From: Deltaproteobacteria bacterium
GTDB lineage: Bacteria; Desulfobacterota; DSM-4660; Desulfatiglandales; Desulfatiglandaceae
Direction: 5' to 3'
DNA: 36,731 nt
NCBI GenBank assembly: GCA_021737425.1
Contig: JAIPDZ010000007.1
Location: 1 to 36,731 of the forward strand
How positions within the stretch are numbered: the first letter of the stretch is position 1; every line of letters begins with the position of its first letter. Position numbers and translations under genes: made by a program. The notes beneath the pieces are model-generated. The model was given only the letters and a program-made list of their open reading frames with translations. It was not told where the DNA came from and made no database searches. Shown here piece after piece: positions 17,949 to 28,134 of the stretch.

Positions 17949-18992
17949 ATGGGACGTTTTTTCAAACGAAAAAAGAAAGACCCTGCCCAAGCGGAACAGG
18001 GCCCGCAGGGGGAGGCGCCTGAATCCCCGGACCTCCCGTCTGGAGAGGCGCCTCCGGAGGGGCAGGCGGGACTGTTCAAACGACTCACCCGCGGACTGTC
18101 CAAGACCCGGTCCACTCTCACGGGGCGGATGGGGCGTCTTTTGTTGGGGAAAAAAGAGATCACCCAGGAACTCCTGGACGATCTGGAGGAAATCCTGTTT
18201 ACTTCGGATATGGGGGTGGCCACCACCCAGGAACTGATCGATGATGTCCAGGAAAAGGTGGCGAGAAAGGAACTCAAGGACCCGGAAAAGCTCCTGGCCG
18301 CACTCAGACAGCAGATTCAGGAATTTCTGGAGTTGCCCCCGGCGGATCATTCCACCCCCGAGCCGGGGGATCCCCGGGTGATTATGGTGGTGGGGGTGAA
18401 CGGGGTGGGAAAGACCACCACCATTGCCAAGGCCGCCAATCATTTCAAGTCAGAGGGGAAAAAGGTGATGCTGGTGGCGGCAGACACCTTCAGGGCCGCG
18501 GCCGTAGAACAGTTGAGCATCTGGGGGGAACGGGTGGGGGTGGAGGTCATCAAACAGAAGACCGGGGCAGATCCGTCTGCAGTGGTCTTTGACGCCCTGT
18601 CCGCGGCCGAGGCCAGGAATATGGATGTGGTGCTCATTGACACGGCCGGGCGGCTGCATACCCAAGTGAATCTCATGGATGAACTCCAGAAGATACGCCG
18701 GGTGGCGGGACGGAAGGTAACGGGCGCCCCCCATGAAGTGTGGCTGGTCCTGGATGCCACCACGGGACAGAACGCCATTTCCCAGGCGGAATTGTTTAAT
18801 CAGGCCTTAACCGTCACCGACATCGTCCTTACCAAGCTGGACGGTACGGCAAAAGGGGGGATTGTGGTGGGCATCTCCCGGCAGCTCAACATCCCCATCC
18901 GATACATCGGTATCGGAGAAAAGATGGATGATTTGCGGCCCTTTAACCCCCGGGAATTTGTGCAGGCCCTTTTCGGCGAAGAGGCATCATAA
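17949..18992 (+). CDS. ftsY: Signal recognition particle receptor FtsY
   Basis: The 347-residue GTPase receives ribosome-SRP complexes at the membrane and hands them to the Sec translocon. A short basic N-terminus (FFKRKKK) and a short Pro/Glu-rich linker precede the NG domain. G1 is GVNGVGKTT (149-157), the DTAGR motif is at 231-235, and [10 protein letters not shown] is at 295-304. The acidic A domain of E. coli FtsY is largely missing, giving the compact form common outside enterobacteria. A GAAGG ribosome site lies 5 bases before the ATG and the smc stop is 22 bp upstream, so the pair is likely co-transcribed. Its stop codon sits immediately next to that of the convergent radical SAM gene. 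Confidence 0.98.
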
Positions 18993-19883
18993 GGCCCGCA
19001 TCCACTCCGGTCTGAGTCCGACCTCTCCGTGGAGCGCACTGTCAATCTGGTCCAGGGCCTCCTGCTTCCCCTTGGGCAGCCTGGCCTTGATGGGAAGATA
19101 GTTGGAGGCATGGTTGGAGAAAAACAGGCCGCGGCTTAAGTGGGTGTGTTCAATCATGGTCCTTAATTCCTGCAAGAGCCCCTGCTCATCCGGTAGGCGG
19201 AAGGTCCCGGCCGCCCATTCTTCGTGCAGGGGGGTCCCCGGGATCAGCATCACGGTCAGGGCCCCCACATAATTGGGGTCCATGGCACTTAAAAGGTCGC
19301 CGGTGGCCTTGGCATGGGTAAAGGACCCTTCTACCCCTCCGATCCCCAATAACACGGTAACCGACAATTTGATGCCGGCCTCCCGGACCTTTCTGCCCAT
19401 GCGGATCAGATGCTGGGGGCTGGCCCCCTTGCGGATTTTTTTCAACAGGTCCTCATCCCCGGTTTCCACGCCCATGTACAGGATCCCGAGCCCGTTTTCC
19501 CTGAGCGCCTTCAGCTCCTCCGGGGTCTTCATCTTGATACCTTTGGCATTGGCATAGGCCCCCACCCGCCTGACCCAGGGGAGATGGGTCCGGATCTGAT
19601 CCAGGATCCACAGGAGGCGCTTCTGGGGGATAATCAGGGCATCTCCGTCCATGAGAAACACCCGGTCCTGGCGTTTCATGTACTTGGCAGCGAACCGGAT
19701 GTCGTTATAAATGGTCTCATCATCCTTGATTCGAAACCGTTTGTCCTTATAGGTGCCGCAAAAGGTGCACTTGTTGTGGGAGCATCCCACCGTCACCTGG
19801 AGCAGAATGCTATAGGCCTCGCTGGGGGGCCGGATACAGTTCCCCTCGTAGTGCATGCCTTCGAGTTCAGTGTGGTCATTCAT
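18987..19883 (-). CDS. Radical SAM protein (COG1032-type, no B12 domain)
   Basis: The 298-residue protein opens with [19 protein letters not shown], in which C34, C39 and C42 form a CX4CX2C cluster rather than the usual CX3CX2C. Later elements such as [28 protein letters not shown] and TVLLGIGG fit the SAM-binding barrel. The N-terminal B12 domain seen in many relatives is absent. The reaction is unknown; such proteins are often annotated only as radical SAM. AAGGAG lies about 9 bases before the ATG. It overlaps the ftsY gene tail to tail by 6 bp. The promoter candidate at 20042-20069 may drive it. Confidence 0.88.
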
Positions 19884-20075: not shown

Positions 20076-21140
20076 TTAGAGGATCTCCTTGGGTCGGTGG
20101 CTGTCCCCAAGCACCGCCGATTCATCTACCTTTATTCCGCGGATGCCGACGGTTAGGGCCTTGAGGGGGTGTTTCACCGAATCCATGACCGCAGTGGGCT
20201 CAAACCCGCAATGCAGCATACAGTGGGTACAGCGGGGATCCCGTCCTACGCCGTAGCGGGACCAGTTGGTGTTTTGCATCAACGCTTCAAAGGTGGGTTC
20301 ATATCCGTCGTTTAACAGATAACACGGTTTCTGCCACCCAAAGATATTCCGGGTGGGATTGGCCCAGGGCAGGCATTCATAGGCCTGGTTTCCGGCCAGG
20401 AAATCCAGATACAGGTTGCTGTGATTGAATGTCCATCCCCTCCCCTTGGCAGAGGCCAGAATGGATTGAAACAAAACCGTGGCCTGGTCCCGGGTAAAAA
20501 ACCCGTCCTGATCCGGTGCATTGGGATACCCAAAGGCAGAGGCGATGGTCATGGCTTCCACTCGCAGAGAGGTCAAAAAGTCAAACAGGCGGCAGGCCCC
20601 TGGTGCGGTCTCGCCTTGGAACAGGGTGGTATTGGTGGTCACCCGAAACCCGGAGGCCACCAGATGCCGGATGGCGGATACGGCCCGGTCAAATACCCCC
20701 TTTCGACCCACCCGGTCGTCATGGCGTTGATCCAGGCCGTCCACATGGACATTAAAGGTGAGGTAGGGAGAGGGATCAAATTCATGGATCCGTTTCTCCA
20801 CCCGAAGGGCGTTGGTGCACAGATAGACGAATCGCTTCCGGGCGATGAGGGATCGGGCGATGGCGGCGATATCCGGGTGAAGCAGGGGTTCGCCCCCGGC
20901 AATGGAGACTACCGGGGCCCCGCATTCCTGGGCAGCGGTCACGCATTCCGCCGGCGTCATCCTCTTCTTGAGGATGTGTTCCGGATAATCGATTTTACCA
21001 CACCCTTTGCACCGAAGGTTACACCGGAACAAGGGTTCCAACATCAGGACCAGCGGAAACCGTCCATTATGGGTATGGCTCAGTTTTTTTCTCAATAGGT
21101 AGGCACCGATTCGGGCCTTTTGAATTGCGGGTATTCCCAC
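20076..21140 (-). CDS. hpnH: HpnH, adenosyl hopane synthase (radical SAM)
   Basis: HpnH joins the 5'-deoxyadenosyl group of SAM to diploptene, the first step of extended hopanoid (C35) side chains. The 354-residue protein matches the family: the N-terminal RFPLVLMLEPLFRCNLRCKGCGK contains the radical SAM cluster C40, C44, C47, followed by GKIDYPEHILKKRMTPAEC and SIAGGEPLLHPDI. The C-terminus carries CTHCMLHCG. The start is GTG at 21140 with AAGGAG 7 bases upstream. It is the last gene of the hopanoid operon, 39 bp after the TPR lipoprotein. Its usual partner HpnG, which removes adenine, is not in the window. Confidence 0.95.
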   Translation of the reverse strand: MGIPAIQKARIGAYLLRKKLSHTHNGRFPLVLMLEPLFRCNLRCKGCGKIDYPEHILKKRMTPAECVTAAQECGAPVVSIAGGEPLLHPDIAAIARSLIARKRFVYLCTNALRVEKRIHEFDPSPYLTFNVHVDGLDQRHDDRVGRKGVFDRAVSAIRHLVASGFRVTTNTTLFQGETAPGACRLFDFLTSLRVEAMTIASAFGYPNAPDQDGFFTRDQATVLFQSILASAKGRGWTFNHSNLYLDFLAGNQAYECLPWANPTRNIFGWQKPCYLLNDGYEPTFEALMQNTNWSRYGVGRDPRCTHCMLHCGFEPTAVMDSVKHPLKALTVGIRGIKVDESAVLGDSHRPKEIL

Positions 21141-21179: not shown

Positions 21180-22028
21180 CTATCTCCGCCCGTCTATTTC
21201 CCGGCACAACCGCCCCAGTAAGTCCAGGGTCATCCGCCATTTTTCCAGAGGGCCGGTCCCCGGGTTGAGCCGGCGCATCACCCGGTTCAGTTCATGACAG
21301 GCCTCGCTCCCTTTTTCTTCGGCCAGCAGGGCTTCCACCAGCCCCAACCGATTGTCAATAAAATCAGGATCCTGGTCCAGGGCTCGTCTGAAATGGGCCA
21401 CACTTTTGGCTGAATCCCCGATGCTCAGTGGAAAGGCCGGGGCCTGTAGGTAGAGTTCTCCCAGCATGCGATCAGGACCCCCGTGATCCAGCCCGGGGTT
21501 GAGACCCGCTGCCGCAAGGGCCTCACGCTCGATTACCGGCACCAGCTGTAGGCCGTGCAGGGAATCGTTTTCCGCCTCAAGGCCGGTCAGATAGGCCAGA
21601 AGGTAGTGGGCGCGCGCCGATTTCGGGAGCCGGGATACGGCAAGTTCCGCCAGTTTTCGGCCCTTTCTGGCGTGGGCCAGCCTGGTTTCCCGGTCGGTGC
21701 CGTGCAGGGCCGGAAATACATGGCAGTTGGCCGCCCGCAATGCGGAAACCCCGTCTTCCTGGGCGGCGGTCTCCCATCTTTCCAACGCTTTGGGGGTGCA
21801 GGCCGCAAAGAGGCGGAATTTTGCCTGGTCCGTATGGGACACCATCCCTTTGGTCCCCTTTTGGGGCCGCGGGTCCGGCCCTTGGGCGCAGGCCCCCATG
21901 AGGAGCCACAGGATGCAGAAAAGGCTACGGAAAACAGCCTGTTTCCTGACCCGGCGCAAATCGAGGGAGGGGCCTGTTCGTCCGGGCAAACCCGTCGGTT
22001 TGAAGGAGCCTGAGGAGTGATTGTGCAT
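21180..22028 (-). CDS. TPR lipoprotein, TatT-like (TRAP transporter T-component family)
   Basis: The 282-residue frame has a hydrophobic segment (AVFRSLFCILWLLMGAC, 31-47) ending in a lipobox-like cysteine, so a lipoprotein anchored in the periplasm is likely. The rest is helical with TPR-like stretches; GGPDRMLGELYLQAPAFPLSIGDSAKSVAHFRRALDQDP resembles TatT, a trimeric periplasmic TPR protein linked to TRAP-type transport of hydrophobic ligands. The first ATG overlaps the preceding gene by 104 bp; a TTG at 21959 would shorten it to a conventional signal peptide but has no ribosome site, so the start is uncertain. Its place between the PhnD-like gene and hpnH suggests a role in hopanoid handling rather than TRAP transport, as no TRAP permease is near. 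Confidence 0.75.
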   Translation of the reverse strand: MHNHSSGSFKPTGLPGRTGPSLDLRRVRKQAVFRSLFCILWLLMGACAQGPDPRPQKGTKGMVSHTDQAKFRLFAACTPKALERWETAAQEDGVSALRAANCHVFPALHGTDRETRLAHARKGRKLAELAVSRLPKSARAHYLLAYLTGLEAENDSLHGLQLVPVIEREALAAAGLNPGLDHGGPDRMLGELYLQAPAFPLSIGDSAKSVAHFRRALDQDPDFIDNRLGLVEALLAEEKGSEACHELNRVMRRLNPGTGPLEKWRMTLDLLGRLCREIDGRR

Positions 22029-22806
22029 CTTTATCCGCCTTCATTCCCAAGAGGATGGATGCCAGCTGCTCGGTCCGCTCATCCGGGGGACCCCGCCACA
22101 CCACCGGGGATGGGGGCAGGGGCCCGGAGGTGTGGAGGACCTTGATCTTGCGGGCCAGGGGGAGGCGCTGAACAGCCTCGTACTGCATCCGGTCCACCAC
22201 GGCCCCGGTCAAGGTTCCTGCCGCCACCTTGCGCAGGGCCCGCAGGGGCCTGAACGTACCGGCCAGGGTAAAGGGGAGATCCCGGGCCGGGACCCCGAAC
22301 AGGAGACAGGCCGCGGCCCGGGTTTCAAACAGCATGTTTCCTGAGACCGTGCCCGTAAGGGTTTGCCACTGATCATTCCCGTCCTTCGGCGCCATTAGAC
22401 GCCACACATCGGTGTCATGTCCCCCCGGCCGGGTGGATGCAATGGGGGTCATATCCAACCGAGCGGCCTCCTGGACATAGAATCCCGGACTCACAATGCC
22501 CCAGGCCGGCCGATGGTCCTGTAAAAAGGCCAGGGCAGGGTCAAGTCGGTTGAAATACCGCCCCTCCACCTGCACCTTGGACCGGAAGCCTTTTTGCACA
22601 TAGGCGGCCAGGGCCTCCATCACCGGCCGGGCAGACTCCGCATTTCCGGGCTGACCCGGTTGAATCACCGCAAAATCAAGGACTTCCTCGGATAGGACGA
22701 CCCCTGTCCACAAAAGGGGGATGACCTGAAGGGCCACCCCCAGGAGGATGGTTTTGATCCGGCACTTGCGTGGGGCTGGCCGGGGTGGTCTGTTTTTGTC
22801 TTGCAT
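21925..22806 (-). CDS. PhnD-like periplasmic substrate-binding protein
   Basis: The 293-residue protein has a basic N-terminus and a hydrophobic segment (about 17-38, TILLGVALQVIPLLWTGVVL) fitting a signal peptide. The mature part begins LDFAVIQPG and continues with features of the PhnD/phosphonate-type binding protein fold: WGIVSPGFYVQEA, and the segment GTVSGNMLFETRAAACLLFGV at the inter-lobe region, then GAVVDRMQYEAVQ. No ABC permease or ATPase is nearby. It starts 6 bp after the hpnN stop and overlaps the TPR lipoprotein gene, so it belongs to the hopanoid operon. In this setting it may bind a ligand for the HpnN exporter or act as a sensor; the ligand is unknown. Confidence 0.72.
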   Translation of the reverse strand: MQDKNRPPRPAPRKCRIKTILLGVALQVIPLLWTGVVLSEEVLDFAVIQPGQPGNAESARPVMEALAAYVQKGFRSKVQVEGRYFNRLDPALAFLQDHRPAWGIVSPGFYVQEAARLDMTPIASTRPGGHDTDVWRLMAPKDGNDQWQTLTGTVSGNMLFETRAAACLLFGVPARDLPFTLAGTFRPLRALRKVAAGTLTGAVVDRMQYEAVQRLPLARKIKVLHTSGPLPPSPVVWRGPPDERTEQLASILLGMKADKDAQSLLRLLQTDGFARTNRPLPRFAPGQETGCFP

Positions 22807-22812
22807 GGCAGC

Positions 22813-25530
22813 TTAATGACGCCTTTTGTTGAAATTGCCCAGTAACTTGAGGGCCGGGGGGAGGGCCAGCAGCGCGGCCATCATCCCCATAAAAGACCCC
22901 AGCACCATCACCACCCCCAGGCTGGCCAATCCCAGGTGATGGGCAAACAGGAGCCCCCCGAATCCGATCATGGTGGTGGCGAAACTGAGGGCCACGGCCG
23001 TAGGGGTACTGGTGTGAAAAAGCCCCCGGATGGGTTCCGTCCCGGCCTGGTGCCCGGGCTCGGTCCCCAATTCCTTCCATCGCGCCAGCAGGTGCACCCC
23101 GCCGTCCACACCAATGGCGATGAGGATGGGAATGGCAAAAAAATTGGCCAGATTAAACTGGATGCCCATTCCCCCCATGAGTTCAAGCAGCCATAGCATA
23201 CTTACGCCCAAAGGTAAAATGGTAAGGAGCACATAACGCCATGACCGGGAGTAACCCCACAGGATCAGGGACACCAGGCAGAGGGTGACCCCGGCAGCAA
23301 AGAGGAATGTCCGGTGCATGAGCCTGGCGGATTCCAGTACCACCACCGGCACCCCGCTTACCCCGGGATCGACGCGGCGCAGATCCGCCACAAAGCGTTT
23401 GAGGTTATCGAACTGCCAGACGTTTTCCCCGGGCATCACCTTGATCTGGTAGGTCCCGTCCTTACCGATATAAAGATCCCGGATGGCCGGGGGAATCTGG
23501 TCTACGGTCAGGGTATCGGCACTCAGCCATATGGTGAGCTTGTCCATGAACCGGGCGATGTTGCGCGTGATTTCCTTTTGAACGGGTTCGAGCAGCCGGG
23601 CGCTTTTTGGATCCTGTTGTAGATGGTGTTGGAGCGCCTCCATGGCGCGGACATTCTGATCCAGCAGGGTGAGTTGTGCGCCGGCCCCTGCTGCAAACAG
23701 GGTTTCCTCCAATTCCATCAGGGCCGTTTTTAGTTGGGACAGGGCATGGGTGAGCCGCCCGGGATCCACCGTTTTTGGGGCCTGGATCCGCATGGGAATA
23801 TGGCCGAGGGCCATGGCCGCCTTTTCATATCGCACGTTTTTCTTAGATGGGTCCTGAGGGAGGTAGTCCAGTATACTATCCAGGTGTCCCACGCTGGGAA
23901 GCGCCTTGAGGGTCCGGCTCAGATCACGGATCTCAGGGATGCTGCGGCCGGTCATGATGGCATACCATGTGGACTCCCCCGATGCCTCGATCAAATCCCG
24001 TTCATACCGGACCGACTCCAGGCCTCGGGCCTGAAGTTCAAGGAGATTATAACTGAACCCCACCTTGAAAAGGGCGGGAAGGCCGGCCAGGCTGATGATG
24101 CCCAACAAAAACAGGGCCCACCCCGGCCTTTTGGACAAACGCTCCAAAAAGGGCATGGCCGTGATCCGGGGCGCCACAGAGGGAAACAGGTTTTTTCGGC
24201 CCGCGATCAGCATCATGGCCGGGAGTATGGTCATCATGGAGATTAGACACAAAAGCACGCCTGTCCCTCCGATCAGTCCCAGTTGGGCCAATCCGGTAAA
24301 GTCCGAAAAAAGAACCGAAAAAAAGGCGCACACAGACGTCACTGCCCCCAGGAAAATGCCCGGTCCGGTCTTCAGCATGGCCGTACGGACCGCCTCGTCC
24401 ACGCCAAGCCCTGCCTTGACCCCTTCCACGTACCGCATGATCATGTGGATGCCGAAATCGACCCCGATACCCACCAGGACCAGGGCGAAGACAATGGAAA
24501 GGAGATTGAGTTCCCCCACGGCCACTGTGGCAAAGCCGAAGCTCCAGGCCATGGCCATGAGCAGGGCGATGAGGAGCAGAAAGGGTCTGAGCCACCCGTG
24601 CAGGACCGCCGTAAACAGCAGGCCCACCAGGCCGATGGCGATAATGGCGGCCAGGGTCATATCCCTGTCCGTGGTTTCCATCTCATCCGCCTGGAGTACG
24701 GGTCTGCCGGTCAATCCGGCCTCCACCCCCGGGAATGCGGCACGGGTATCCTCAATGGCCCGGCGAACCATCTGAAGGGGCTTTCCAATGACATCCATGG
24801 ATCCATAATCCTTGCTGGGAAGGAGCCGCATGATGAGGCGCTTTTCATTGGGGGTAAAAAAATATTGCTCCCCCATCTGGGGAAATCCGGAGAGGGACGG
24901 GTCCGTGTTGTGGGTGAAAAGGGCCTTTTCCATATTCTGGAGGAGACTGCTCAGGTATTCCAGGGCCTGGTTCAGCAGGGCCGGGTCCATGTCCATGGCC
25001 TTGGCCCCGCCTCCTCCCATCAGGGTACTGACCTGTTCCAGGAGTCTGGCCAGGGTGGGGTCCTTCATCCAGGCCTTGATATGGGGAGCCAGAAAAACCA
25101 CTGTCCGGGAGAGTTGTCTGGCCTCTTCGGGAGATGCAAACAAAAGGGCCGCATTCCCCAAGTCTTCCAAAGAGATCCGGTAATACACCGCTTCAATCAA
25201 CTCAGGGTGCAACCGGAGGTTGGCATTGAGACTGTCTGCAAATTCAATGGCGGTCTGTTTCCCTGCCCGGGTACCGTCGGTCTTGATCACCACGTACAGG
25301 TATTCCTGATCCCCGAAATTCTTAAGGTGGCTCAGATATTGTCTCTGAAAGGGCACCTCAGGAGAGACCAGCCGGTCCTGGTCGCTGTTCAGGTCCAGGA
25401 AGAAAAAGGCGGCGAGGACGGACAAAATGGCCACAAGCGCGCCCGTCCCGATGACCCTGCCCGGATATCGGGAAACCATGCGCCAGAGGAGGAGGATGGT
25501 GCGTTCCTTGGGGTTCTTCCGTGGGCTCAT
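22813..25530 (-). CDS. hpnN: HpnN, hopanoid-associated RND (MMPL-type) transporter
   Basis: The 905-residue protein has the MMPL/RND layout: one N-terminal helix (VIGTGALVAILSVLAAFFFLDL), a periplasmic loop, a five-helix block with GIGVDFGIHMIMRYVEG, a second helix and loop, and a last five-helix block with AIGVDGGVHLLARW. Length and context match HpnN, which moves hopanoids to the outer membrane in Rhodopseudomonas. The start at 25530 is chosen because its ATG overlaps the hpnO stop as ATGA; a longer open frame begins at 25791 but runs inside hpnO and its first 87 residues are not protein-like. The PhnD-like gene follows after 6 bp. Confidence 0.9.
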   Translation of the reverse strand: MSPRKNPKERTILLLWRMVSRYPGRVIGTGALVAILSVLAAFFFLDLNSDQDRLVSPEVPFQRQYLSHLKNFGDQEYLYVVIKTDGTRAGKQTAIEFADSLNANLRLHPELIEAVYYRISLEDLGNAALLFASPEEARQLSRTVVFLAPHIKAWMKDPTLARLLEQVSTLMGGGGAKAMDMDPALLNQALEYLSSLLQNMEKALFTHNTDPSLSGFPQMGEQYFFTPNEKRLIMRLLPSKDYGSMDVIGKPLQMVRRAIEDTRAAFPGVEAGLTGRPVLQADEMETTDRDMTLAAIIAIGLVGLLFTAVLHGWLRPFLLLIALLMAMAWSFGFATVAVGELNLLSIVFALVLVGIGVDFGIHMIMRYVEGVKAGLGVDEAVRTAMLKTGPGIFLGAVTSVCAFFSVLFSDFTGLAQLGLIGGTGVLLCLISMMTILPAMMLIAGRKNLFPSVAPRITAMPFLERLSKRPGWALFLLGIISLAGLPALFKVGFSYNLLELQARGLESVRYERDLIEASGESTWYAIMTGRSIPEIRDLSRTLKALPSVGHLDSILDYLPQDPSKKNVRYEKAAMALGHIPMRIQAPKTVDPGRLTHALSQLKTALMELEETLFAAGAGAQLTLLDQNVRAMEALQHHLQQDPKSARLLEPVQKEITRNIARFMDKLTIWLSADTLTVDQIPPAIRDLYIGKDGTYQIKVMPGENVWQFDNLKRFVADLRRVDPGVSGVPVVVLESARLMHRTFLFAAGVTLCLVSLILWGYSRSWRYVLLTILPLGVSMLWLLELMGGMGIQFNLANFFAIPILIAIGVDGGVHLLARWKELGTEPGHQAGTEPIRGLFHTSTPTAVALSFATTMIGFGGLLFAHHLGLASLGVVMVLGSFMGMMAALLALPPALKLLGNFNKRRH

Positions 25531-26903
25531 CCGCTTTTGAGTGTTCTGAGGCCCATATTCATGACGGTGGTCCAGGCAGAGCCCGGGAATCTGTGCGCCT
25601 TCTTCAATACCGAATCCATGGCCTCCAGGAAATAGTCTGCATCGGTTTTTTGGATGACAAGCGGGGGGAGTATCTTGACCGTGTCCAGGCCGTGGCCGGC
25701 CACCTGGGTCAGGATATGATGCCGCTGCATCAGGGGCATGGTGATGATCTGACAGAAGAGGTCTGCATTCATCCGATGAAGCAGGTTCCACCGGTTCCTG
25801 AGTGTAAAGGATGTGGGTTCGCCGAACTGCAGACCGATCATGAGCCCTTTTCCCCGGATCTGGGTTAACATGTCGTAGCGGCCGGCCAGGGCCTCTAACC
25901 CCTGCATGAGGTACTCCCCCATCCGGGCCGAGTTTTCCACCAGCTTTTCCTGCAGGATCACATGAAGGGTGGCCAGTCCGGCGGCCATGGCCAGGTCATT
26001 TTGGCCAAAGGTATTGGAGTGAGCGAAACACCGGTCCATGCAATCAAATATTCTGGCATGGATCTCCCGTCGGGTCACTACCGCCCCCACCGGGATAAAC
26101 CCCCCGGAAAGGGCCTTGGATATCACCAGGATATCCGGCACCACATCCCAGTGGTTGACGGCAAACATCCGCCCGGTTCGACCCAACCCGGTCTGGACCT
26201 CGTCCGCGATGAGCAGGGCGCCGTATTGGTCGCACAGCGCTCTGACACCGGGCAGGTAATCGTCGTCCGGGACAAAGACCCCCTTCCCCTGAATGCACTC
26301 CACAATAAAGGCGGCCACATCGTTCTCTGTAAAGGCCTTTTCCAGGGCCTCCAGGTCATTAAAGGGAACGGGGATGCACCCGGGCAGAAGGGGCTCGTTC
26401 CGGGCCCTGAATTCCTCGTTTCCGTTTACGGACAGGGCCCCCAGGGTGAGGCCGTGAAAGGCCCGTTCACAATAGACCACCCCGCTTCTTCCCGTGGCTT
26501 GTCTGGCAAACTTGAGTGCCCCTTCCACGCCTTCAGCCCCTGAGTTGGTGAAGAATACCGCATCCAGGTCCCCCGGGGTCAATTCTGCCAGGGCCTCGGC
26601 CAATAGGCCGGATATGGCCCCCGCATCCATTTGGATCATGCTGGGCGGATCCGCATCCAGCATCTCCCGCACCACCTGGGCCACCAGGGGATGGTTCCGC
26701 CCGATATTGAAGACCCCAAAGCCCGCCAGAAAATCGAGCACCTCCCGGCCTTTTTCATCGATCAAACGCGCCCCTTTGGCAGAGGAATAGTTGCGGTTGA
26801 ACCCGATGACCTCCAGTACCCGCACAAATTGCGGGTTCAAATAGCGACGGTGGAGGTCATAGGCCTCTCCCCGGCGTCCGTTCACCATTGAAACAATGTC
26901 CAT
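25527..26903 (-). CDS. hpnO: HpnO-type class III aminotransferase (aminohopanoid synthesis)
   Basis: The fold-type I PLP enzyme has 458 residues from the ATG at 26903 (a TTG at 26912 is possible). It shows FFTNSGAEGVEGALKFAR for the cofactor phosphate, DEVQTGLGRTG with the PLP-ring aspartate, and ISKALSGG with the Schiff-base lysine (K263 from this ATG). It resembles ornithine/acetylornithine-type aminotransferases. Position beside hpnB, hpnN and hpnH identifies it as HpnO, which adds the C35 amino group to make aminobacteriohopanetriol. The hpnN ATG overlaps its stop. A perfect 8-bp hairpin lies about 20 bp before the start. Confidence 0.85.
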   Translation of the reverse strand: MDIVSMVNGRRGEAYDLHRRYLNPQFVRVLEVIGFNRNYSSAKGARLIDEKGREVLDFLAGFGVFNIGRNHPLVAQVVREMLDADPPSMIQMDAGAISGLLAEALAELTPGDLDAVFFTNSGAEGVEGALKFARQATGRSGVVYCERAFHGLTLGALSVNGNEEFRARNEPLLPGCIPVPFNDLEALEKAFTENDVAAFIVECIQGKGVFVPDDDYLPGVRALCDQYGALLIADEVQTGLGRTGRMFAVNHWDVVPDILVISKALSGGFIPVGAVVTRREIHARIFDCMDRCFAHSNTFGQNDLAMAAGLATLHVILQEKLVENSARMGEYLMQGLEALAGRYDMLTQIRGKGLMIGLQFGEPTSFTLRNRWNLLHRMNADLFCQIITMPLMQRHHILTQVAGHGLDTVKILPPLVIQKTDADYFLEAMDSVLKKAHRFPGSAWTTVMNMGLRTLKSG

Positions 26904-26923
26904 GCGTATCAATATCCCCGCGT

Positions 26924-27012: not shown

Positions 27013-28134
27013 TCAATCTTCAACGCCGTAGGCCCTCCCTTTCCACCGGGCTCCCGTCCCCTGCCAGAATTGAATGGCCGACATCCAGGTCATGAGCAGA
27101 TAGAGCCCTCCGATGAGGGGCAGGCCCAGGGCCCATCCCATGGACAGCCCATAGAAGCGAAGCGTGGGGACATACGTGATCATCATGATCCCCAGGGCAG
27201 ACAAGGCGATCAGTTTTGGCCAGACAGAGGGGAATGCCAACCCGGCCATTGGGACCCAGAACATGAGGATCATCATCGCAGTAACCAGGAACAGGAGCAC
27301 GGTGGAATGATGCAGTTGATAAAACGCGGTTCGGGCCACCATGTGGGCGATGTCCTTGAGTCCTTGGTAGGGCCTCAGGCTTTGGACCGAATGGCTGAGG
27401 CCGGTCCAGGTCCGGAAACCCGCCGTCTTGATCTGTCCCGCCAGGGCGCAGTCATCGATGAGCGCATCTTTTATGGCGCTGACCCCCCCGGATGTCCTGA
27501 GCGCATCCGTCCTCACCAAGATGCATCCCCCGGCTGCGGCCGCCACCTTTGACGAAGGGGAATTGGCCAGAGCAAAGGGGTAAAGGAGTTTGAAAAAGTA
27601 GACAAAGGCCGGCATGAGCCATTTTTCCCAGAAATGGGTCATCCGCAGGCGGGCCATCAGGGAGAGGAAGTCCACATCATGGGTGTGGGCATGATGTAAC
27701 AGCGCCTGCAGGATCCCGGGCGCCAGCACGATGTCCGCGTCCAAAAGGAGGACCCAGCCCGAGCGGACATGGCGCAGGCCCTGCTCAAGGGCCCACACCT
27801 TTCCGCTCCATTGGGGAGGGAGGGGTTCCCCCGGTATCACCCTCACTCCGTCCCAGGCCATTGCCTCCCGGGTGGTCTGATCCGTGGACTGATCGTCCAC
27901 CACAATGATCCCCATGCCCGGGCCCTGAGCCCGAACCCCCTCCAGGGTCCTGCCGATTACTTCGGCCTCGTTTCTGGCCGGGATTAATACCGTAATATCG
28001 GGCAGGGGCTCGGGACCCACAACGTCCGATGCATTTAGATACTCCCGGGTGGCCCAAGGCCGCCAGGGCAAGAGCAGAATGGCCGTCCACAGGGAGAGCG
28101 GGGCCAATGCCAGAAGCATCCAGATCATGGGCAT
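27013..28134 (-). CDS. hpnB: HpnB, hopene-associated glycosyltransferase
   Basis: This 373-residue GT2-family protein matches HpnB closely: an N-terminal helix followed by LLPWRPWATRE, then ITVLIPARNEAEVI, the nucleotide-binding pair D80-D81 (VVDDQSTD), PPQWSGKVWALEQGL, the DAD motif (132-134), AAAAGGCILVR, ALIDDCALA, and SLRPYQGLKDIAHMVARTAFYQL before a C-terminal block of about four membrane helices. HpnB is thought to glycosylate hopanoid side chains at the inner membrane; the sugar is unknown. The ATG at 28134 overlaps the end of the preceding GT2 gene by 10 bp, and a second ATG two codons later overlaps its stop as ATGA, so coupling is likely. Confidence 0.92.
   Translation of the reverse strand: MPMIWMLLALAPLSLWTAILLLPWRPWATREYLNASDVVGPEPLPDITVLIPARNEAEVIGRTLEGVRAQGPGMGIIVVDDQSTDQTTREAMAWDGVRVIPGEPLPPQWSGKVWALEQGLRHVRSGWVLLLDADIVLAPGILQALLHHAHTHDVDFLSLMARLRMTHFWEKWLMPAFVYFFKLLYPFALANSPSSKVAAAAGGCILVRTDALRTSGGVSAIKDALIDDCALAGQIKTAGFRTWTGLSHSVQSLRPYQGLKDIAHMVARTAFYQLHHSTVLLFLVTAMMILMFWVPMAGLAFPSVWPKLIALSALGIMMITYVPTLRFYGLSMGWALGLPLIGGLYLLMTWMSAIQFWQGTGARWKGRAYGVED

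Follow-up and report, generated by a model that had tools for sequence, protein, structure and literature searches.

A conserved BstABC-like cassette with a distinct HpnN-like pump in a Desulfobacterota hopanoid gene cluster, and its probable role in hopanoid trafficking

The hopanoid gene cluster of a Deltaproteobacteria bacterium contains a three-gene cassette for a resistance-nodulation-division (RND) pump, a periplasmic binding protein (here called B) and a tetratricopeptide repeat (TPR) lipoprotein (C), which is a conserved, hopanoid-linked variant of the Bst lipid-transport architecture on a distinct HpnN-like RND. It lies in a stretch of 36,731 nt (GCA_021737425.1, contig JAIPDZ010000007.1; hereafter the window), with all cassette genes on the minus strand (Table 1). 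Judged from sequence comparison, its function is probably that of an envelope lipid cassette used for hopanoids, in which the RND pump would extract the lipid, B would shuttle it and C would deliver it at the outer membrane. It is neither a strict BstABC nor a canonical HpnN/HpnM system. Zhai 2024 (PMC10942540) describes a putative system for sterol transport in Methylococcus capsulatus, with BstA as its RND, BstB as its periplasmic and BstC as its outer-membrane part; BstB and BstC bind 4-methylsterols, and Deltaproteobacteria are among the sources of the closest BstC homologues. No hopanoid-operon version of Bst is described in the passages of that paper that were consulted, and a targeted literature search returned no other paper. 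A first-pass annotation of the window had missed this precedent: the cassette is no novel assembly of components from ABC and TRAP transporters, since RND, PhnD-fold and TPR proteins have already been published together as a lipid (sterol) transport architecture.

By sequence, profile and predicted fold, the nearest characterised relatives of B and C are BstB and BstC. Among the NCBIfam models, B matched BstB (NF045601) at 2.7e-17 (63 bits, cut-off 350) and PhnD at 0.0042, while C matched BstC (NF045602) at 1.2e-22 (81 bits, cut-off 350). Searched against solved structures, the single B sequence retrieved BstB (7t1m) at 2.7e-11, and a 12-row family profile retrieved it at 4e-27 with the next protein at 0.0035. 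C retrieved BstC (7t1s) at 4e-15 and, as a profile, at 9e-26, where one engineered repeat protein ranked higher solely by summing many weak repeat matches; the C sequence used in the PDB sequence search began at 21950, where no start codon lies, so that its N-terminus alone was trimmed. AlphaFold2 models built from 12-row alignments had as their top PDB fold matches 7t1m for B (pLDDT 85, TM 0.80 on target) and 7t1s_A and 7t1s_B for C (pLDDT 81, TM 0.64 on target). B and C, earlier labelled PhnD-type and TatT-like, are not generic members of those families; closer kin are found in BstB and BstC. TatT/TPAT T-components of TRAP systems (Tp0956) share the TPR fold family with C and appeared among its lower-ranked fold matches (8g53, 8g52, 3u64). 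BstC is nevertheless closer to C, and a TRAP/TatT system was ruled out, as no TRAP permease or P component was present among the nine neighbouring proteins scanned. An ABC permease was likewise not found among these nine proteins, in agreement with the first-pass annotation.

The pump itself had been called hpnN, a name that is only partly appropriate. Its best NCBIfam model is indeed TIGR03480 HpnN (517 bits, E 1e-154) and its best PDB match is HpnN (5khn, 3e-49), but it misses the TIGR03480 cut-off of 752, and scores 318 bits against NF052374 (HpnN, cut-off 1100) and 283 bits against the BstA model NF045600 (cut-off 1400). In an unrooted tree from a quick search, with SH-aLRT support alone, the window clade (support 100) was separated from both BstA and canonical HpnN and neighboured two RNDs of another family, one of them with MlaC (support 94). 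On this sequence evidence, the window RND is a member of a separate HpnN-like clade and not a canonical HpnN. With HpnN (TIGR03480, NF052374; PDB 5khn, 6wu0) it shares its best matches and its place in a hopanoid operon with hpnH, whereas its scores, its clade and its B-C partners set it apart. A common branch of all B-C-partnered RNDs (window plus Bst) was not rejected (AU test, P-value 0.079) and was not supported in the RND tree. Strict BstABC membership of the cassette was ruled out by the cut-offs (283/1400, 63/350 and 81/350 bits) and by gene content. What the two systems have in common is an RND, a PhnD-fold periplasmic protein and a TPR outer-membrane-type protein in the same order beside triterpenoid genes, whereas the window has hopanoid rather than sterol genes and its RND belongs to another clade.

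The cassette is conserved as a unit. All 13 window-type loci with a readable RND showed the order RND-B-C, with B and C directly after the RND, and this recurrence shows that the arrangement is not due to chance; co-occurrence of the two genes with the RND elsewhere, which the first-pass annotation had proposed as a check on its claim, was thus observed. Nearby hpnH was seen in 11 of these loci, the remaining two reaching the contig end. Partner genes were tallied with profiles over all reading frames. Seven of 61 close relatives have B, and a named genome collection yielded 12 loci with it, among them those of Delta proteobacterium NaphS2, a Desulfuromonas, a Syntrophobacteraceae, a Desulfovibrio and a Methylophilaceae metagenome-assembled genome (MAG). 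The Methylophilaceae cassette is on a 2-Mb contig, and the other window-type loci come from several Desulfobacterota families. Methylococcaceae Bst loci with a readable RND displayed the same RND-BstB-BstC order. The weaker B matches that other genomes of the phylum gave (E 1e-4 to 1e-10), inspected in part, resemble ordinary binding proteins except in two genomes, G141 and G229 (see below).

Related pumps have a different partner. For this contrast we took 19 RNDs from the phylum whose scores fall in the range of the window RND, below the HpnN cut-off. An MlaC-family gene was located immediately downstream in 14 of the 19, and 1.5 kb away in one more; B or C was beside none of them, and MlaC was beside none of the 13 window-type RNDs. 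SHC, the squalene-hopene cyclase, was found in 31 of 35 genomes with related RNDs, which means that these pumps mostly occur in hopanoid producers. The RND-MlaC/HpnM pairs of Desulfobacterota hopanoid producers thus resemble the window cassette in having a related RND, an SHC-containing genome and a periplasmic lipid carrier directly downstream, and differ in that this carrier is of the MlaC family. The window genome's own MlaC sits in an mlaFDCA operon. MlaC of the window-type genomes, a single gene in nearly all of them, lies among mlaD, mlaF or mlaA in an ordinary mla operon, except in G439, where no MlaC was found, and in the Syntrophobacteraceae MAG G441, which has two MlaC genes and an HpnN-like RND-MlaC pair (L085) separate from its RND-B-C cassette (L029). 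These partner counts are grouped by shared ancestry and do not stand for independent events. The data fit the idea that B-C take the place of the MlaC/HpnM-like carrier used by related RNDs. The comparison (B-C 13/13, MlaC 14/19 elsewhere) gives good support to the original proposal that the two periplasmic proteins are accessories of an RND-based hopanoid route in which they replace HpnM.

Gene content gave clues to the cargo. Both SHC and HpnH over cut-off were each present in 13 of the 14 window-type genomes, the exception for HpnH being G441. All eight typed cyclases of these genomes were best assigned as SHC and not as oxidosqualene cyclase (OSC), and no squalene epoxidase was detected in any window-type genome by a search that was positive in two Bst-positive Methylococcaceae controls. 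Among 395 genomes of the phylum, SHC was found in 68 overall and in 4 of the 4 with a strong B (P-value 8e-4, uncorrected for kinship), and in none of the B-negative genomes of the window's own family within this sample. The window genome has its own SHC, HpnG-like and HpnH genes, and the HpnH in the window, correctly called beforehand (495 bits with TIGR03470, whose cut-off is 225), is the only one over cut-off in that genome. Since hopanoid synthesis genes are present and sterol genes absent, the natural cargo of the window-type cassette should be a hopanoid.

Residues of the presumed ligand cavities have changed as well. Glu86 of BstC contacts the sterol hydroxyl, and sterols are bound about 4.5- to 100-fold more weakly when this residue is mutated (PMC10942540). 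In our cavity alignments, where identities of about 25-35% make single positions tentative, this residue is Glu in 14 of 15 Bst sequences, mostly K/R/T/L in the window clade and Leu in the window. Three further changes relative to BstC are fixed in the window clade (Tyr122 to Leu, Phe208 to Gly and Arg132 to Glu/Gln), and the docked polar trio of BstB, Glu118/Tyr120/Asn192, is replaced by Asp/Trp/Asp in 14 of 14 sequences. Hopanoids have no 3-hydroxyl and carry their polar tail at the opposite end, so the changed residues fit a changed ligand. The check for a phosphonate pocket in B, also put forward in the first-pass annotation, did not speak against its claim: the loop at the PhnD phosphonate-loop position reads GNMLFETxAAA and is not of the Ser-Thr-Ser type, a comparison made by loop type and not by alignment of B to E. 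coli PhnD itself.

From the observed gene order, kinship, gene content, partner contrast and residue shifts we infer the ligand, direction and handover of the following relay. The RND pump would lift bacteriohopanepolyols, the products of SHC, HpnH and the aminotransferase, from the inner membrane. B, as a BstB-like two-lobe carrier, would receive the lipid in its interdomain cleft and ferry it through the periplasm, and C, a BstC-like helical lipoprotein that is probably anchored at the outer membrane, would accept it there for delivery to that membrane. Together, B and C would perform the job of the MlaC/HpnM-like carrier found beside related RNDs. Several points weigh against this relay. 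The proteins are distant from BstABC (24-26% identity for A, about 25% for B and 29-39% for C), with B and C far below the curated cut-offs. At several positions of the alignment, the tail pocket of B is more polar and less hydrophobic, and the BstB docking site used for comparison is one that its authors did not verify by experiment (PMC10942540). Finally, the draft genome of NaphS2 (G010) yielded no cyclase although it carries the cassette and hpnH, and G441 combines SHC with the lack of an HpnH over cut-off and with the additional RND-MlaC pair.

B, C and the RND might instead handle lipids that are not free hopanoids, such as hopanoids with a sugar or some other modification, or a different isoprenoid, with the operon position reflecting co-regulation. 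The HpnB-type and two further glycosyltransferases upstream would suit such a cargo, although several loci did not show HpnB or the other glycosyltransferases. A near-canonical BstABC cassette in the Desulfobacterota genome G141 (L087:6280-10651; BstB 378 bits, over the cut-off, and BstA 1261 bits, just under it) is also relevant, as no SHC, OSC, squalene epoxidase or HpnH over cut-off was found in that genome. Either the contig is contamination (8% reported) or the cargo is of some other kind, in which case cargo beyond self-made cyclase products exists for this architecture. The window-type cassettes, however, are tied to hpnH and SHC, and we regard another lipid as an unlikely cargo.

It is very unlikely that B and C gate the RND as a sensory or regulatory pair, with B reporting the ligand and the TPR protein as scaffold. 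The PhnD-fold proteins AioX and ArrX, which are known sensors, are among the fold matches of B, and TPR proteins often are scaffolds; yet there were no two-component genes among the neighbouring proteins scanned, and the closest relatives BstB and BstC bind lipid directly (PMC10942540). More remote still is a route that runs inwards, for retrieval or uptake of triterpenoids. Sequence does not reveal direction, and PhnD and T-component relatives serve importers, but here hopanoids are made by the organism itself (SHC, HpnG-like, HpnH) and outer-membrane hopanoids need HpnN (Doughty 2011, as cited in PMC12583986). That B carries phosphonate or phosphite in the ordinary way, and came into the operon by chance, can be dismissed despite its Pfam assignment to Phosphonate-bd, being ruled out by the models (PhnD 0.0042 versus BstB 2.7e-17), by the loop and by a context in which no ABC genes occur among the scanned neighbours and the RND-B-C order is kept in 13 loci.

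The hopanoid relay preferred here matters for a process, the crossing of the periplasm by these bacterial look-alikes of cholesterol, in which HpnN is established, HpnM is suspected and little else has been assigned. The cassette offers two periplasmic candidates with crystallised relatives, which makes it amenable to binding and transfer assays. It connects the machineries that transport sterols and hopanoids and extends the Bst architecture to organisms without sterol synthesis. Carriers akin to BstB and BstC behind a hopanoid pump suggest that both classes of lipid use the same type of molecular relay. The cassette also shows that the carrier beside related pumps can be either MlaC-like or B-C. 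As a tentative idea that we hold to be rather doubtful, RND-B-C could be an ancient triterpenoid exporter that arose once and served the hopanoids of anaerobes, with BstABC an offshoot re-tuned after oxygen-dependent sterol synthesis arose; this is prompted by the AU test, which does not reject a common branch, and by the Bst-type cassette of G141, for which no cyclase was found.

Within the window, the minus strand encodes in transcription order two glycosyltransferases, an HpnB-type glycosyltransferase, a class-III aminotransferase, the RND, B, C, hpnH and a radical-SAM protein. The RND start overlaps the aminotransferase stop (25527) by 4 bp, the RND-B gap is 6 bp, the B and C open reading frames overlap, and 39 bp separate the end of C (21180) from the HpnH start (21140); the coordinates and spacings given by the first-pass annotation were exact. 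There is no ATG near the lipobox of C. The first in-frame ATG is at 22028, and the TTG at 21959 is the more likely start. An HpnO-specific model was absent from the listed matches of the aminotransferase, which is called HpnO-like by context. The radical-SAM protein at 18987-19883 has weak similarity to HpnJ and is hpnH-adjacent in four relatives; it is possibly a hopanoid-linked enzyme and part of the cluster.

Table 1. Genes of the cassette region and their positions in the window
Feature	Position	Strand	Remarks
Two glycosyltransferases	29973-28125	-	Upstream of HpnB-type gene
hpnB-type glycosyltransferase	27013..28134	-	TIGR03469 378.4 bits, cut-off 379.25
Class-III aminotransferase, HpnO-like by context	25527..26912	-	PF00202 7e-95; same place in most relatives
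HpnN-like RND (MMPL) inner-membrane pump, 905 aa	22813..25530	-	ATG at 25530; TIGR03480 517 bits, E 1e-154
BstB-like periplasmic binding protein B (PhnD fold)	21925..22806	-	Signal peptide; NF045601, PDB 7t1m
BstC-like TPR lipoprotein C	21180..21959, start uncertain	-	Lipobox LLMGAC; NF045602, PDB 7t1s
hpnH, adenosyl-hopene transferase (radical SAM + DUF3463)	20076..21140	-	TIGR03470 495 bits, cut-off 225
Conserved radical-SAM protein after hpnH	18987..19883	-	79-85% identity, hpnH-adjacent in L017, L018, L020, L021

The distribution of pumps and of Bst-like pairs showed some further variation. HpnN-like RNDs were lacking in 15 of the 68 SHC-positive genomes. One genome of family f33 (G234) has SHC and no HpnN-like RND over 300 bits, and another of the same family (G184) has a window-type cassette. 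In G229, a more distant pair of BstB-like (76 bits) and BstC-like (49 bits) genes (L090:8812-12564) is found beside an HAE3-type RND of 785 aa on the opposite strand, possibly a third branch of the Bst architecture. In two Bst-positive genomes (G843 and G845; loci L190 and L191), a cyclase gene directly follows bstC; its product is 25% identical to the SHC of the window genome and presumably an OSC, which gives a sterol mirror of the window layout.

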